From Rhizobium sp. NXC24 (GTDB lineage: Bacteria > Pseudomonadota > Alphaproteobacteria > Rhizobiales > Rhizobiaceae), in contig NZ_CP024314.1 of NCBI RefSeq assembly GCF_002944315.1, positions 1,364,001 to 1,428,000 of the forward strand: a stretch of 64,000 nt of DNA, written 5' to 3'. Below the pieces are notes generated by a model. That model was not told where the DNA came from and made no database searches. It saw only the letters and a program-made list of their open reading frames with translations. Made by a program: the position numbers and the translations under genes. Below, piece after piece: positions 22,311 to 29,690 of the stretch (within the stretch, counting starts at the first letter, position 1; each line of letters starts with the position of its first letter).

Positions 22311-23130
<820 letters not shown>

Positions 23131-23427
23131 CGCCGATCCTGGTCGAAGCGAAGGCAAATGCCCGATGGTCGCTGGATTTCGTGCACGACCAGTTCGCCTG
23201 CGGCAGACGCTTTCGCGTTCTTAACATCGTCGACGATGTGACGCGTGAATGCCTGGCAGCGATCGCTGATACGTCGATCTCCGGTCGCCGTGTCGCGCGA
23301 GAACTGACAACGCTGATCGAGCGGCGCGGCAAACCGGCGATGATCATTTCCGACAACGGCACCGAACTAACGTCGAATGCCATCCTCGCCTGGTCGAAGG
23401 ATCACAAGGTGGAGTGGCACTACATCG
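23131..23427 (+). pseudogene. IS3-family transposase OrfB, 5' half (split by IS66)
   Basis: The rve/DDE core of an IS3-type OrfB: RAPILVEAKANARWSLDFVH, then VVDD-like NIVDDVTREC and the second Asp in ISDNGTELTSNA. The 5' part is missing, and the frame breaks at WHYI, exactly at the left end of the inserted IS66 element. The rest of the gene resumes at 29372. Joining the halves through the 8-bp duplication gives the expected [12 protein letters not shown] order. Confidence 0.88.
23420..23427. repeat. Target-site duplication, left copy
   Basis: CTACATCG immediately outside the left terminal repeat. The identical 8 bp occur at 29372-29379. IS66 elements make 8-bp duplications. Confidence 0.95.
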
Positions 23428-23478
23428 GTAAGCGCGATTTTCCCCGCACCTTCTGCAATTGAGTGAGCTTTGGCATGA

Positions 23479-23504
23479 GGTGTCCACCAAAATAGGTGGA
23501 CACC
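23479..23504 (+). promoter_or_regulatory. Inverted repeat upstream of tnpA
   Basis: GGTGTCCACC and GGTGGACACC separated by six bases, a perfect 10-bp stem ending 5 bp before the tnpA ATG at 23510. It could be an operator or a hairpin hiding the tnpA ribosome-binding site to limit transposition. The function is inferred. Confidence 0.5.
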
Positions 23505-23509
23505 AAGTG

Positions 23510-23938
23510 ATGGAAGAAGGTCAAAAACTTGCCGTGCGGCTGGTCGGTCGGAATGGGAGACGCCGTTTCGATCAAAGTTCGAAAGACCGCCTTATTGCGG
23601 CCTGCCTTGAACCTGGCGCATCGGTATCGAAACTCGCGCGCGAACACGGGGTCAACGCGAACCTCGTTTGGAAATGGATACGGAAGCACACCCAGCCGCT
23701 TGCGTCGCCGCCGTCTTCGACATCGTCTTTTATTCCGGTGCAAATCACCGCGGCCAGCGACGAGTTTGAGTTTGGTGAAGAGCTGCCTCGGAAAGCAGAG
23801 AGGAACCGGCCGCTGCCCTCTCCAGCGAAGGTGAGCGCGTCACTGCCGAACGGCGTGAAGCTGACGTTGGAATGCGGTGACGTAGATGCATTGACGGCAA
23901 TCATCGGAGCGCTGGGTCATGTTCAGACTTGGCGCTGA
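23510..23938 (+). CDS. tnpA: IS66 accessory protein TnpA
   Basis: A 142-residue protein starting MEEGQKLAVRLVGRNGRRRF. It has an HTH of the transposase-8 kind (KLAREHGVNANLVWKWIRKH). A TTG 17 codons upstream is possible, but ATG 23510 matches relatives. TnpA is needed along with TnpB for IS66 transposition. It overlaps tnpB by 20 bp, the usual coupling in this family. Confidence 0.85.
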   Translation: MEEGQKLAVRLVGRNGRRRFDQSSKDRLIAACLEPGASVSKLAREHGVNANLVWKWIRKHTQPLASPPSSTSSFIPVQITAASDEFEFGEELPRKAERNRPLPSPAKVSASLPNGVKLTLECGDVDALTAIIGALGHVQTWR

Positions 23939-24123
23939 TCTCAAGGTTTACCTGCATCGCGAGCCGATCGACTTTCGGGCCGGCATCAACAGCCTTGCTG
24001 TCCTGGTCCAGGAGACGATGGCGCTGGATCCCTTTGCTCCTGCGGTTTTTGCCTTTTGCAATCGCCGTCGTGACCGGGTGAAGCTTTTGTTCTTCGACCG
24101 GTCCGGCTTTGTGCTGATCCTGA
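23919..24123 (+). pseudogene. tnpB: IS66 TnpB, 5' part (interrupted)
   Basis: The first 68 codons of the IS66 Orf2 protein: MFRLGADLKVYLHREPIDF, then RDRVKLLFFDRSGFVLIL. The frame is broken at about 24121-24123 by the serine-recombinase element. Joining a24123 to g27501 restores the frame as LIL-RYKRLTEDKFRW, so excision would repair the gene. Confidence 0.9.
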
Positions 24124-24158
24124 ACGATCTGCATTCATACTGCATCTCTCTTTCGCAT

Positions 24159-26258
24159 TCAGTTGAAGGTTTTGGCGTGTCCGGCATTTTGCTTGCGGGC
24201 GGCGACGCGATCGATGAGCTGGTTCCATCGACTGCATTGCTTTTGCGGTAAATTCGTCTTTGGAAGCTCGTACAGGTAGTAGTGCCCGTTGTAGGCATGG
24301 CTGGTGACGAGGCCGTGTTCAGCCCATCTGGCGAGAGTATGTTCATGGATATTGAGGTGTTCAGCCGCCTCCTTTTTTGTCAACATCCCACGATCCCGGA
24401 GCCGGTCATAGCGTGATCTCAGCTTGTATTCGCGAACGAGATAGGTGACGCGTTTGGTTGTGAAGCGTGCATTGCACTGGTCACGGCGCGTCACCGAGCC
24501 CGGCCGATATCCCTGATCGTTGAGAATCTCTGCGATCTCGGAAAAAATATGATTGTCGAGGAGGTTATCGATCAGTGCGATGATGTCGGGGTTCGTCTTG
24601 ACCTGCTGGCTGGGCGATTTTGGGCTGATGGTGACGAGTGTCTGGGTTTTGCCGCCTTTGAAGCGAATATGAGCCTTGGTTGTGCCTCTCTTCGGTAGTT
24701 TGAGGAGGGTGACGTCCTCAATGATGTGAGCAAGCAAGCGCTTTCGTTCGCGGTTCGGGGTCTCTGGGTTGGTCCAGAGTTTTTTGAAGTCCGCCGTCAT
24801 GGCGACAAACCGCTCGTGGACGGCCTTATCGAGGATGAATTGATCGTGCTCCCGGGCGCGCTCGCGCTCTTCGCGGGCATTAGCCAAGATGCGGAGCTTC
24901 TCGTTCCATTCGCCTTCGAGCGTGTCGGCGACGAGGCGGTTATTGGGATCGACGAGCATGAAACGGCGCTGGGCGAGATCGGCTTCCGTTTGCGCGCGCT
25001 CGATTGCGCGACAGCGCAGCCGGTCCGTCTCTTCATGTCGCGCTTCGATCTCTTTGCGGACTTCAATCGCCAGTTCGATGGCTGCCGGCGTCATCTGCTC
25101 GGCGATCAGCATGCCGATGGCTTCGTCAACAGGAGGTGCAGCGATCGCCTGGCACAGGGGTTCACCGCGATTGGTACGGGCGCGATCACAAACGTACCAG
25201 GCTTCCTGCCGACCGCGTCGGGCAGCGTAGCGCATGCGAAAATGCCTGCCGCATTGCCCACACACGGCCCGCCCCTGCAGCAGCGCCGGGCCTTCCCGCG
25301 GCGGTGATGCGACCGCCACGTTCCATTTATGGCAGATGTTCGACTTCAGAATCCTCAGGTTCTCCTGATGCTGCTCCCAACTGATGTAGCCGGGATGGGC
25401 ATCTGGAATGCATGCTGTCCAATCGTCACTCCCTTGTTTGCGCACGAGCTTTTTGCCATCGATGGTTCGTCGATAGCGACGGCGGCCATAGGCATAGGCT
25501 CCGGCGTAACGTGGATTGTGCAGCACGCGCATCGCCGTCGAAGGCGTCAGTGGCCGGAAAACCGTCTGGCTGTCGTGCAAGCGAGAGGGAAAGAGAATGC
25601 CTTCCTGCCGGAAGGCCTTGACGGTCTGGGAGGCGGATCCGACGCGAGAGAACGTCTCGAAGAAATGGGCGATCGTCTCTCTGACTTGCATGTCTGGATC
25701 AAGCGTTACATTGCCGGAGTGGTCATAGACCAGCCCGGTTGGCAGCGGGCAACGGAACTCGCCACGCCGGGCCTTATTGAGGATGCCGCCGCGCAGCCGC
25801 GCCTTGATCACATGCAGTTCGGCCTCACTCATTGTTCCCTTGAGGCCGAGCAGGAGCCGGTCGTTGAAGCTTGCCGGATCGTAGACGCCGTCCTCATCGA
25901 GGATCAGGGTGTCAGCAAGGGCGCAGATCTCGAGTAGACGCTGCCAGTCGGCATTGTTGCGCGCCAGACGGGAGACCTCCAGGCCCATGACGATCCCGGC
26001 ATGTCCCATGCCGACATCGCTGACCAGCCGTTGAAATCCCTCTCGCCAGACCGCCGATGCGCCGGATTCACCTTGATCGCTATCGATAACGATAATCTGC
26101 TCCTCGCGCCAACCAAGGGCGATAGCGCGCCCGCGAAGCGCATATTGCCGCATGGCGCTCTCGGTATTGTCGATGACTTGCCGCATCGAAGATTGGCGGA
26201 TGTAGAGGTAGGCGCTGCGTTCGAGGTGATGAGGCTGGACTTTGAGATGTACATTCAT
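24159..26258 (-). CDS. Large serine recombinase
   Basis: A 699-residue site-specific recombinase, start at 26258 (MNVHLKVQPH) with GGAG upstream. The resolvase domain (~15-165) contains YLYIRQSSMRQ with the nucleophilic Ser at 23/24, and GLEVSRLARNNADW. A recombinase domain follows (~180-300, PLTPSTAMRVLHNPRYAG), then a zinc ribbon (CGQCGRHFRMRY near 330 with a later YVCDRA), a helical region, and a C-terminal MerR-like HTH (MLTKKEAAEHLNIHEHTL). It should cut and rejoin the element's ends. It is last in a three-gene minus-strand unit. Confidence 0.9.
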   Translation of the reverse strand: MNVHLKVQPHHLERSAYLYIRQSSMRQVIDNTESAMRQYALRGRAIALGWREEQIIVIDSDQGESGASAVWREGFQRLVSDVGMGHAGIVMGLEVSRLARNNADWQRLLEICALADTLILDEDGVYDPASFNDRLLLGLKGTMSEAELHVIKARLRGGILNKARRGEFRCPLPTGLVYDHSGNVTLDPDMQVRETIAHFFETFSRVGSASQTVKAFRQEGILFPSRLHDSQTVFRPLTPSTAMRVLHNPRYAGAYAYGRRRYRRTIDGKKLVRKQGSDDWTACIPDAHPGYISWEQHQENLRILKSNICHKWNVAVASPPREGPALLQGRAVCGQCGRHFRMRYAARRGRQEAWYVCDRARTNRGEPLCQAIAAPPVDEAIGMLIAEQMTPAAIELAIEVRKEIEARHEETDRLRCRAIERAQTEADLAQRRFMLVDPNNRLVADTLEGEWNEKLRILANAREERERAREHDQFILDKAVHERFVAMTADFKKLWTNPETPNRERKRLLAHIIEDVTLLKLPKRGTTKAHIRFKGGKTQTLVTISPKSPSQQVKTNPDIIALIDNLLDNHIFSEIAEILNDQGYRPGSVTRRDQCNARFTTKRVTYLVREYKLRSRYDRLRDRGMLTKKEAAEHLNIHEHTLARWAEHGLVTSHAYNGHYYLYELPKTNLPQKQCSRWNQLIDRVAARKQNAGHAKTFN

Positions 26259-26550
26259 CGTGATCTCCGATCGTTGATGCTCATGGCGATTGTCGCAAGG
26301 ACGTGAACGACGGCGCTGTGTCCGCGGTGCAGCGGCCAAGCAATTGACGATGGGTAATTCTGCTCTCGCGGGGTGCTTGCTGTTGCGGTCAGCGTCTGAG
26401 CCCATCCCCACATGCCCCGGCGCAAAAAGAGCATCAGGCCACTACGGGCCATAAGTGGCAGCGCTGCGCCGAGAGCAGCCTTGCGCAAGACCTCGTACTG
26501 GGACGCGATGGTCGACGGTAGGATCGGGCATGCCGCCGTCGCGGCAAGGT
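26259..26550. other. Spacer inside serine-recombinase element
   Basis: A 292-bp stretch between the HTH gene and the recombinase gene. I see no gene on either strand. It may hold the recombinase promoter. Confidence 0.35.
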
Positions 26551-27030
26551 TTACCTGCCGCTTTTTTTTAGAACCCGCTCGATCGATCTGGGATGAAGCT
26601 CGATATCGAGTTCCTGGCGGAGCAGCTTGGCAAGTTCCCGGGCGCGAACGGGTTCTCCTGGAGCGAGCTGCGCCTGCAGAAATGCCACGACCTTGTCGTC
26701 GATCTTGTGGGGGCCCCGGGGCCCCGGCTTTGTCGGCACCAGTCCGGCAATGCCGGCCATATCGAAGTTCACCTTGGCCTGGTAGTAAGTCGGCCTGGAA
26801 ACGCCATACTCGTCGGAGGCCTCCGTCACCGACACCTTGTCGATGGAGACGCGACGCAGCATCTCGTATTTGACCTGCACGGCGTCGTGCGGATCGAAGA
26901 ACTCGCTGCCCCGAAACTTTGGATCGCGCACCTTCTCGGAGGTGGGATTGAACGTACCCTCTTCGATGAGGGCATCCGTCTTTGTGCGCTTGCTGTCGTA
27001 CTTCGCAGACATCGATGGCTCCGAGGACAT
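26551..27030 (-). CDS. Helix-turn-helix protein of the recombinase element
   Basis: A 159-residue protein (an alternative start at 27012 would drop six residues). The central region VSVTEASDEYGVSRPTYYQ is an HTH of the transposase-accessory type, and the C-terminal half (PVRARELAKLLRQELDIELH followed by PRSIERVLKKSGR) looks like a second winged HTH. It lacks DDE residues, so it probably binds the element's ends or promoter rather than cutting. It lies between the DUF5372-like gene and the recombinase, all on one strand. Confidence 0.7.
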   Translation of the reverse strand: MSSEPSMSAKYDSKRTKTDALIEEGTFNPTSEKVRDPKFRGSEFFDPHDAVQVKYEMLRRVSIDKVSVTEASDEYGVSRPTYYQAKVNFDMAGIAGLVPTKPGPRGPHKIDDKVVAFLQAQLAPGEPVRARELAKLLRQELDIELHPRSIERVLKKSGR

Positions 27031-27206
27031 GAAGCGACGTAATCGTAATGTTAATTATGACGCATTTTACGGCCTCGTCAAGACAATCCTCATAGTTTGG
27101 CATTAGATAAACCTTGTATTTGCGGGCGACATTCCCACGAAAATAAGACTCATGCGGCATAATCAGCCTTACATGTGCGGCATATTTGTCTTTACACATC
27201 TGCCCA

Positions 27207-27458
27207 TCATCGTGGTCTGGAAAAACGCTCCACCAGGGCGGCCAATTCCATTAAGTCGGCGACCCGCAAGAGCGACCGTCCGTTACCCATGACAACTTCA
27301 GGATCTGGGCTCACAAGTTCAGTCCATTGCGGGGGAACGGGCCAAACGGTGGCATCCTCGGTCTGCAACAGCAAACGTTTGCCCTGCGAGTTAGCTCGCT
27401 CGCCGACGCAAGGAAGCTGCTGTCCAAAAAGGGGATGAAACGGGTGCATGACCCGCAC
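27207..27458 (-). CDS. DUF5372-like small protein
   Basis: An 83-residue protein starting MRVMHPFHPLFGQQLPCV, with a Trp-rich centre (VWPVPPQWTEL) and the ending LLRVADLMELAALVERF. The HPFHPLFG opening and the layout recall the DUF5372 proteins that accompany recombinase genes in many bacteria. No catalytic motif is visible. It is the first gene of the three-gene unit and could act as a directionality factor or DNA-binding partner, but this is a guess. Confidence 0.65.
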   Translation of the reverse strand: MRVMHPFHPLFGQQLPCVGERANSQGKRLLLQTEDATVWPVPPQWTELVSPDPEVVMGNGRSLLRVADLMELAALVERFSRPR

Positions 27459-27500
27459 TAACTGCTGACCTGCGCTGGTCGGGGCTGCATTCTCAGATGA

Positions 27501-27655
27501 GGTACAAGCGGTTGACTGAGGACAAGTTCAGATGGCCCCGCCGCGAGGTGCCGGTCGTTGTGCTGACGACAGAACAGCTCCACTGGATTCTCGACGGCAT
27601 CGATATCGATGCGATGATCCGCCATCCGGTGCGGCAGTATCAGGTCGCCGGCTGA
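27501..27655 (+). pseudogene. tnpB: IS66 TnpB, 3' part
   Basis: The remaining ~51 codons of tnpB after the nested insertion: YKRLTEDKFRWPRREVPVVV then LTTEQLHWILDGIDID, ending in QYQVAG and a TGA at 27653. In frame with the 5' part once the insertion is removed. Confidence 0.9.
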
Positions 27656-27706
27656 GGATGGCGAATAGCGATTGACGCGCAGGGGCGGTTCAGATTCAAG
27701 AATCTG

Positions 27707-29296
27707 ATGACTCGCACCGGCGAACCGAGCATTGCAGAACTGATGGCGCAATTGGCAGCCAATGCTGCCGAAATCGCTGCGCTCAAAGCCGAGAAGGAAG
27801 CGCTCTCGCAGCGGGTCGTCAAGCTTGAGGAGGAGCTGGCGCTTGCAAGGCTGCATCGCTTTGCACCCCGCAGCGAAAAGCACGTTGATCGCCTCTTCAA
27901 CGAAGCCGAAGAGGCTGCCGACGAAGATGACAGCGGCGACGGTGATGACGTTGTCGATCTCCCGGACACGGGCCTGCCGGCGGTCGCGAGCGCCGTGGGA
28001 AAAAAGCGGGGACGCAGACCTCTGCCGGAAGACCTGCCACGCGAGCGTGTCGAATACGACCTTGCCGACGATCAAAAAACTTGTCCGTGCTGCGATAGTC
28101 AAATGCATCGCATGGGCGAGGCCGTTACCGAGCAGCTTCATATCGAAGTCAAGGCAAAGGTCCTGCAGAACGTCCGGTTCAAATATGCCTGCCGCCATTG
28201 CGACCGCACCGGGATCAACACACCCGTCGTGATCGCACCGATGCCGACGCAGCCCCTGCCGGGCAGCATCGCTACCGCTTCGACGCTAGCCTTCGCGCTC
28301 GTCCACAAATACGTCGATGGCACCCCGCTCTACCGCGTGGCTCAGACATTCGAGCAGGCCGGCGTTCCGATCAGCCGTGGCGCTCTTGCTCACTGGGTAA
28401 TCGGCTCGAGCGAGAAGCATCTGCATCGCATCTATGACGCTCTGAAGCTGCGGCTGCGATCGCAGCCTCTCATACATGGCGATGAGACGACGGTTCAGGT
28501 CTTGAAGGAAAGGAACAAGGAAGCCACCAGCACATCTTACATGTGGGCATACCGCAGTGGCGAGGACAGTGAAGAGCCGATCGTGCTTCTCGATTATCAG
28601 CCGGGCCGTGGCCAGATACACCCACAGACCTTTCTTGGTGACTACCGCGGCATATTGGTGAGCGATGGCTACACAGCCTGGCGCACATTGCATGGTGCCA
28701 CCCATGTCGGATGCATGGCTCATTCCCGGCGGCGTTTCGTTGAGGCACTCAAGACCAGAAAGAATGGAGGCGGCCCGCCGGAACAGGCACTCCGGTTCTT
28801 CGAGCAGCTATACCGGATCGAAAAGCAGGCAAGAGACAAAACCCTAGATGCCGGTGAGACGACGGCTGATTGCATTCGCCGTTTCCGCCAACAGCACAGC
28901 TTGCCTGTCCTGAACGCCCTAAAGGCGTGGCTCGACGCCATCGCGCCGAAGGTCGTGCCGGATACCAAGCTCGGCGACGCCGTCTCCTACGCCCTGAACC
29001 AATGGGATTACCTGACACGCTATGCCAGCGACGGCAGGATGCCGATCGATAACAACATTCTGGAACGCGAAATCAGAGTTTTTGCCACCGGAAGAAAATC
29101 GTGGCTGTTCAGCGACACCGCCGACGGAGCCAAGGCCAGCGCAGTGATCTACAGTCTGATGCTCACTTGCCGCGCCTGTGGCGTCGACCCGCTTGCCTGG
29201 CTGCGCTACGTGCTCACTGAGTTGCCTCAGCGGGACGAAAGGGCCGACATCGTCGACCTGCTGCCGTTCAACTTCGCCAGAACCGAAGCCGCCTGA
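27707..29296 (+). CDS. tnpC: IS66 DDE transposase TnpC
   Basis: An intact 529-residue IS66 transposase. Regions: an N-terminal leucine-zipper-like coil ([18 protein letters not shown]), a zinc-finger with CPCCDSQ and the later YACRHCD, the first catalytic Asp in [11 protein letters not shown], the second in LVSDGYTAW with [10 protein letters not shown], and the Glu in [18 protein letters not shown]. The C-terminal ending [19 protein letters not shown] is typical. It lies 51 bp after tnpB. Confidence 0.95.
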
Positions 29297-29371
29297 CACT
29301 ATACGGTTCCAAACGTTGATCCGATGCCAATCAACGGGTGGGCGTCAACGTGCAGCGAAAATCGCGCTTAC

Positions 29372-29690
29372 CTACATCGCGCCAGGAAAGCCGATGCAAA
29401 ACGGCTATGTCGAGAGTTTCAACGGTCGGATGCGCGATGAACTGCTCAACGAGAGCCTGTTCTTCGGCCTCGATCATGCCCGCAGCGCTATCGCTGAATG
29501 GGCGGACGATTATAACCATTTCCGGCCGCACTCATCGCTCGGATATCAGACCCCGGCAGACTATGCCGGAACCATCGCCGCAACCGGCTCCAACGCTGCG
29601 CAAGATGAAAGCTTCGCGTTTCCGCCGGTTGCTCACCCAGCGCCACTTGGCGTATTCAAAACTGCCGGAGCTCTAGTCGCCGCTGGATGA
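29372..29690 (+). pseudogene. IS3-family transposase OrfB, 3' half
   Basis: Continuation of the split IS3 OrfB from 23427: [20 protein letters not shown] with the catalytic Glu in VESFNG, then [20 protein letters not shown] and a natural stop at 29690. The first 8 bp are the right copy of the IS66 target duplication (CTACATCG). Both halves share orientation, confirming that one gene was split. Confidence 0.92.

Follow-up and report, generated by a model that had tools for sequence, protein, structure and literature searches.

A large serine recombinase element in the IS66 tnpB gene of Rhizobium sp. NXC24, with relatives that appear to use transposon genes as landing sites

In a stretch of 64,000 nucleotides from Rhizobium sp. 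NXC24 (contig NZ_CP024314.1, positions 1,364,001 to 1,428,000; hereafter the window, to which plain coordinates refer), the tnpB gene of an IS66-type insertion sequence (IS) is split by a unit encoding a large serine recombinase (LSR). This unit is very probably a site-specific mobile element run by its LSR, with a conserved stretch of IS66 tnpB as the natural attachment site (attB) and with relatives that have switched among transposon genes. The element seems to parasitise other mobile DNA, and a recombinase family specialised on transposable-element genes is the best reading of the related loci. The initial annotation of this DNA had recognized the interrupted tnpB and a self-contained mobile unit with an LSR, a helix-turn-helix (HTH) protein and a DUF5372 protein on one strand, all of which was confirmed, the strand being the minus one; its count of three genes overlooked a small frame, here called EXT, and the element holds four frames in the order DUF5372, HTH, EXT, LSR. 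Conservation of the landing site across widely separated bacteria and the habit of landing in transposon genes go beyond what was annotated. At the sequence level there is good support for a mobile LSR unit that is self-contained and has a 2-bp core: its empty sites are exact, its ends do not vary, and identical copies lie in unrelated hosts.

The ends were set by alignment to a second copy in the same genome, to plasmid copies and above all to empty sites. Uninterrupted versions of the window's IS66 occur on plasmids of R. hidalgonense (locus L132) and R. acidisoli (L133), with identities to the window of 99.3% and 99.0% in the left flank and 95.1% and 95.5% in the right; a third empty copy (L134) is slightly less similar (left 96.4%, right 93.2%). 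In L132 and L133 TnpB is open through FVLILKRLTEDKF, the natural empty gene reading LIL-KRLTEDKF. The window has ...CTGATCCTG-AA-CGATCTGCATTC... at its left junction and ...GATGAGGTAC-AA-GCGGTTGACTG... at its right, and the empty site reads ...CTGATCCTG-AA-GCGGTTGACCG... The dinucleotide AA is the sole sequence common to the left (attL) and right (attR) junctions and the empty site, in agreement with the 2-bp core proposed earlier, and there is no other target duplication. Ends at 24121-27500, as initially annotated, were rejected on account of the empty site, which differs. The proposed clean insertion, whose excision would restore tnpB, was borne out by exact empty sites at AA, but the joined sequence suggested for it, LIL-RYKRL, is not that of the empty sites and is off by 6 bases: the two codons AGG TAC (27500-27505; R, Y) are the right end of the element, not tnpB.

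The same landing site recurs in related elements. Fifty-three relatives were obtained from one scan with the LSR protein alone, chosen without regard to their flanks; profiles built from the terminal 60 nt of elements served to locate the ends, a flank counted when at least 60 nt long, and TnpB matches were taken by tblastn (E up to 0.01) to TnpB halves of other loci in the set. To the left, TnpB ends at the same codon in 37 of the 39 loci with flank; to the right, it continues in 33 of 35. Such recurrence at one tnpB codon is far beyond chance, and target choice in this group (clade A) is not relaxed. AA was found at 37 of 39 left junctions, the other two loci (L012, L031) having changed ends, and at all 35 right junctions. 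The loci carry labels of Alpha- and Betaproteobacteria, Acidobacteria, and one metagenome-assembled genome (MAG) each of Gammaproteobacteria and Elusimicrobia; a locus from Planctomycetota (L050, 52%) falls outside the clade. A tnpB-type element also occurs on a contig labelled Mycobacterium sp. KBS0706 (L033), whereas the other carriers seen here belong to Gram-negative groups; this assembly may be mislabelled or contaminated.

The element has moved between ISs that are unrelated to one another, as comparison of its copies shows. NXC24 carries a second copy (C3:242852-246238, 83% identical) at the equivalent codon of a different IS66 tnpB, and AA stands at each of its junctions. Over the recombinase half this copy matches L019 and L021 from R. 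lusitanum at 99.4% identity, while its left flank has no or little similarity to theirs. In 42 of the 71 clade A pairs whose recombinase halves are at least 90% identical, the 230-nt left flanks, which are tnpB, show no blastn similarity. These flank-dissimilar pairs include the window and L009 (97.5% identical) as well as L019 and L021, both of R. lusitanum P1-7 and 100% identical over 2,300 nt; since copies identical over this length sit in unrelated IS66s of one genome, the element moves. A plasmid collection gave 129 records matching window positions 23900-27700; in 25 the match covered at least 80% of the query. Out of 297 genomes of the family, 25 showed any match, mostly short, and full-length copies were present in four, the window's own included. 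Three NXC24 loci match Pfam PF07508, the third being an LSR of another type, located in IS66 tnpC.

Related LSRs were found in other transposon genes. An element of the y4b type in Sinorhizobium fredii NGR234 (L098) has the same four frames and an LSR about 50% identical to that of the window. On pNGR234a one such copy interrupts an ISNCY transposase gene and a 99.9% identical one interrupts IS21 istA at the same motif, with a further 78% copy in another istA; S. meliloti CP050559 has four copies in istA, three of them complete and one split by an IS256 element. Both host-gene halves were recovered for all six complete copies, and the junction is the Lys codon AAG of AKGRVE, DKAKVE or AKAKLE; on the same plasmid, IstA and ISNCY proteins without an insert read DKGRVE and AKGRVE. 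We take the Glu of this motif to be the catalytic Glu. Unrelated DDE transposases share the Lys and Glu codons of K-G/A-x-V/L-E, and this would probably let a single recombinase pass from one IS family to another, unrelated one.

A further group, clade C, interrupts IS66 tnpC just after an NNxxER motif with the presumed catalytic Glu, both tnpC halves being present in five loci (NXC24 C3:235059-237125, L012, L108, L110 and L118). Two LSR elements share a single IS66 of Ensifer sp. LCM 4579 (L012 1227-8250), where they interrupt tnpB and tnpC, respectively. The tnpC-type LSR of NXC24 (L008 3057-5126) has a possible small gene beside it and lies about 6 kb from the second tnpB-type copy. For the remaining targets the evidence comes from the N side only: IS3-type orfB (L112, L114, L154, L155, L156), an IS630-type gene (L145), istB (L117), a later site in tnpB (L106, L107) and a group II intron-type reverse transcriptase (L141 by Pfam; L095 without a Pfam match), the last of which is probably also an LSR target.

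In a quick tree of 55 LSRs, the 25 tnpB-group proteins form one clade (support 100) next to the istA/ISNCY-targeting LSRs, several of which also have DUF5372 and HTH, and the tnpC-group LSRs form a separate clade. Target labels track the LSR clades, with 13 label changes against a shuffled mean of 28.9, and 21 of the 30 LSRs outside the tnpB clade have a transposable-element gene at the LSR end. Several points weigh against a specialisation on transposon genes. LSR identity was in part the basis of the labels within clades A and C, so that the clustering there is partly built in: L111 and L140 were labelled tnpC in this way and have flanks without tnpC, and the second LSR of L016 is unlabelled despite adjoining tnpC. 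Many of the 21 assignments show the N side only, and two are weak, namely L152 (50 aa, by eye, no Pfam match) and L095, which without a Pfam match adjoins annotated reverse-transcriptase genes and is 35% like one stretch there. Eight of the 30 have no transposon match or too little flank (L024, L104, L105, L111, L138, L140, L142, L149), and one (L143) has a non-transposon neighbour, a peptidase M15 gene possibly of a prophage. Within clade A, a recognisable tnpB is missing on the left in L031 and L035 and on the right in L058 and L060, some loci are near-duplicates (L009/L010, L013-L016, L022/L023), and part of the identical copies come from draft contigs.

The LSR of the window has Pfam Resolvase, Recombinase and Zn_ribbon_recom domains, all above cut-off, together with a C-terminal HTH_17 below cut-off that could, at a guess, be an extra DNA reader; the Pfam search gave no DUF4368. 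Residues Y19, R21, Q22 and S23 (699-aa numbering) are invariant across the five LSRs compared, S23 presumably being the catalytic serine. The LSR most likely starts at ATG 26258 rather than at the GTG of the 750-aa open reading frame (ORF), as suggested by its ATGA overlap with EXT. The HTH protein matches NCBIfam models of IS630 and IS481 transposases, both below cut-off and over its N-terminal part only. The AlphaFold model of the DUF5372 protein (mean pLDDT 90, pTM 0.57) shows a small beta sheet and a C-terminal helix; no function was inferred for it since the model had no match in the PDB at E <= 0.001. Roles of DUF5372, HTH and EXT in regulation or in the control of direction are a guess, and the initial annotation's proposal that its two small genes encode end-binding or directionality factors is likewise speculative.

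The four-frame order is the same in the window, the second NXC24 copy and NGR234, and tblastn matches in the 53 relatives were obtained for DUF5372 in 46, HTH in 45 and EXT in 45 (E below 0.05 for EXT), the loci without a match including cut contigs and decayed copies. A 314-aa ORF (26255-27199) was considered as a single gene and gave no Pfam match; its last part, EXT, was followed into the relatives instead. In the window EXT reads QYEVLRKAALGAALPLMARSGLMLFLRRGMWGWAQ. Among 41 non-redundant EXT loci, the EXT stop and the LSR start overlap in 37 (32 ATGA, 5 GTGA). In the four remaining loci, which are of the y4b type, an ATG stands a few bases upstream of the EXT stop; in NGR234 the annotated EXT and LSR genes overlap by 11 nt. 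In P. phymatum (L095 4086-9861), Y4bD/Y4pK and DUF6788 genes lie near annotated pieces of a group II intron reverse transcriptase, DUF6788 being in the place of EXT.

A run of A residues marks the end of the HTH gene, with 34 A8, 6 A9, 4 A7, 2 A4 and one locus without a run among 47 HTH loci (A7-A9 in 44). Lys codons inside the run are AAA in 95 cases and AAG in one, compared with 88 AAA and 361 AAG in the rest of these genes. Relative to HTH, EXT is in the -1 frame in 26 of the 47 loci, in +1 in 13 and in the same frame in one, and was not found in seven. An ATG, GTG or TTG within the 90 nt before the YExLR motif of EXT is absent in 15 of 41 loci, the window among them, and present in 26, including the second NXC24 copy. 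Since the window type has no nearby start, its EXT probably needs frameshifting or transcriptional slippage at A8; many relatives could use a start of their own. The varied frame would suit slippage or coupling better than a single fixed -1 signal.

LSRs cut at a 2-bp core and recombine attP with attB; for excision a directionality factor is required. The attP of a circular form would consist of the two element ends joined around AA. The LSR would make cuts with a 2-bp stagger at AA and so join this circle to the tnpB motif x-K-R-L-E at its Lys codon; the reverse reaction would excise the element and leave tnpB as before. Residence in a gene of another transposon might cost the cell little, offer several target copies per genome and allow carriage by the IS. 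Relatives have switched target between transposon genes, mostly at conserved-motif codons. Taking the related loci together, it is likely that an LSR lineage found on contigs of several phyla consists of hyperparasites of transposable elements, able to jump across IS families. Each clade would have as attB the conserved, often catalytic, motif codons of a transposase or intron reverse-transcriptase gene, and an expression relay would be part of the same arrangement, the conserved A run feeding the EXT frame and the EXT stop, by its overlap, the LSR start.

Four other explanations were weighed. The unit could be a passenger carried and inherited by IS66 without mobility of its own, as might be thought from the position of nearly all clade A copies within IS66 tnpB and from the perfect 8-bp target duplication of the carrier in the window. 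Empty copies of the same IS66 exist, however, the same y4b-type element occurs in both ISNCY and IS21, and near-identical elements sit in unrelated IS66s in the 42 of 71 pairs given above, on which ground this very unlikely reading was rejected. Spread between ISs by homologous recombination or gene conversion, in place of LSR integration, would be favoured by the conserved motifs flanking the site; it is hardly credible given that those same pairs lack flank similarity despite recombinase halves at least 90% identical, and that similarity starts at the 2-bp core.

Regulated excision might instead make the unit a reversible switch that turns IS66 transposition on, in the manner of the fdxN and skin elements, which restore genes by excision. 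Excision at AA would indeed give an uninterrupted tnpB, and the HTH and other small proteins could regulate it, but there is no sign of regulation, and the many copies and several target clades suit mobility better; the LSR also scores only 87.6 bits against the XisF model (NF041201), its best NCBIfam match, well below the cut-off of 375. A switch is thus improbable. The association with transposon genes could finally be an effect of ascertainment in repeat-rich plasmids, those of rhizobia being rich in ISs and nine of the 30 LSRs outside the tnpB clade having another or no recognised target. This is most unlikely, since a search by the LSR alone led to the same codon in 37 of 39 loci, and five distant LSR loci, a small control, gave no match to the transposon panel. 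An independently mobile, LSR-driven element with tnpB as its landing site accounts best for these observations.

The features of the locus are given in Table 1. The host IS66 itself splits an orfB of IS3 type, with rve pieces in the ORFs at 23181-23462 and 29178-29690, so named by our own assignment, and the nesting has three layers, the LSR element within IS66 within IS3. Elsewhere in the window, an IS21 istB at 22367-23157 on the minus strand, in two overlapping pieces, is probably decayed, and a long series of minus-strand ORFs at 425-20968, by eye sugar-nucleotide, glycosyltransferase and ABC export genes, resembles a surface-polysaccharide cluster.

Table 1. Positions of the LSR element, its genes and the host IS66 in the window.
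Feature	Position	Strand	Basis or remark
LSR element, 3,383 bp including one AA core copy	24123..27505		Empty-site comparison; 83% second copy in genome
Core dinucleotide AA, left junction (attL)	24123..24124		
Core dinucleotide AA, right junction (attR)	27506..27507		
LSR, 699 aa from ATG 26258 (750-aa ORF from GTG 26411)	24159..26258	-	Pfam
EXT, small frame between HTH and LSR, -1 frame of HTH	26255..26569 (about)	-	tblastn conservation; stop overlaps LSR start (ATGA)
A8 run (T8 on + strand), 3' end of HTH gene	26562..26569	-	Candidate frameshift or slippage site
HTH protein, 159 aa	26551..27030	-	Pfam HTH_28 over cut-off
DUF5372 protein, 83 aa	27207..27458	-	Pfam PF17342, 65 bits
Host IS66-family element	23428..29371	+	Terminal inverted repeat and identical flanking 8-mers
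Terminal inverted repeat of host IS66, GGTAAGCGCGATTTTC			Left first G may be the target's
8-bp target duplication of host IS66, CTACATCG	23420-23427 and 29372-29379		Perfect
IS66 tnpA	23459..23938	+	Pfam HTH_Tnp_1
IS66 tnpB, N-terminal part through core AA	23919..24124	+	Pfam TnpB_IS66; agrees with empty gene of L132/L133 up to AA
IS66 tnpB, C-terminal part, core AA (KRLTEDKF...) to stop	27506..27655	+	Continues empty gene of L132/L133
IS66 tnpC	27707..29296	+	Pfam DDE_Tnp_IS66

The best-known role of serine recombinases is to insert phages and other elements into the genes of a host. The present family seems to have turned to other transposons, using very conserved gene codons as an address. 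Many of its ends and target sites can be paired and its changes of target are clear, which makes it a useful natural collection for studying how LSRs choose DNA and how they come to change target. A second mobile element may also be silencing some of the broken IS copies of rhizobial and soil genomes, perhaps in a reversible way, and annotation leaves the parts of this element as separate unnamed genes.

In the open-licence literature, a scope that leaves ISfinder outside and makes negatives weak, no LSR lineage with transposon genes as attachment sites was found, nor anything on DUF5372 or on serine recombinase, IS66 and tnpB together, and y4bA appeared only in unrelated papers; nor was the y4b set seen described as an IS-targeting element. 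Passages of an LSR survey (PMC10083194) tie DUF4368 to multi-targeting LSRs and name other target genes, transposon-gene attachment sites not being among those named. LSR elements and the y4b genes are already known, and the use of transposon genes as attachment sites by a recombinase lineage appears, on this weak negative, to be new.

Among known systems, the transposons Tn4451 (TnpX) and Tn5397 (TndX) are LSR-driven, have a 2-bp core, many landing sites and carry cargo. The window element shares with them the LSR, the 2-bp core and an expected circular form, but it uses a conserved gene motif and has no recognisable cargo and, in Pfam, no DUF4368. XisF, the recombinase of the fdxN element, is likewise an LSR lying within a gene; the target and the other genes differ. 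IS4321 and IS5075, of IS110 type, land in the terminal repeats of Tn21 ends and are thus also mobile elements within another mobile element, whereas here a serine recombinase and the motif codons of a protein-coding gene are involved. The IS607 serine transposase is a small serine recombinase with an N-terminal DNA-binding domain, unlike the 699-aa LSR, whose catalytic domain is N-terminal. Counterparts are also seen in the gene sets y4bABCD and y4pHIJK on pNGR234a of S. fredii NGR234 (record NC_000914), the former of which has long been present in databases. They differ from the window element in an LSR of only about half identical residues, in targets that are ISNCY and IS21 transposase genes and not tnpB, in an A9 run and in an EXT annotated with its own start, and resemble it in the order DUF5372, HTH, EXT, LSR, in constant ends and in the presence of more than one copy.

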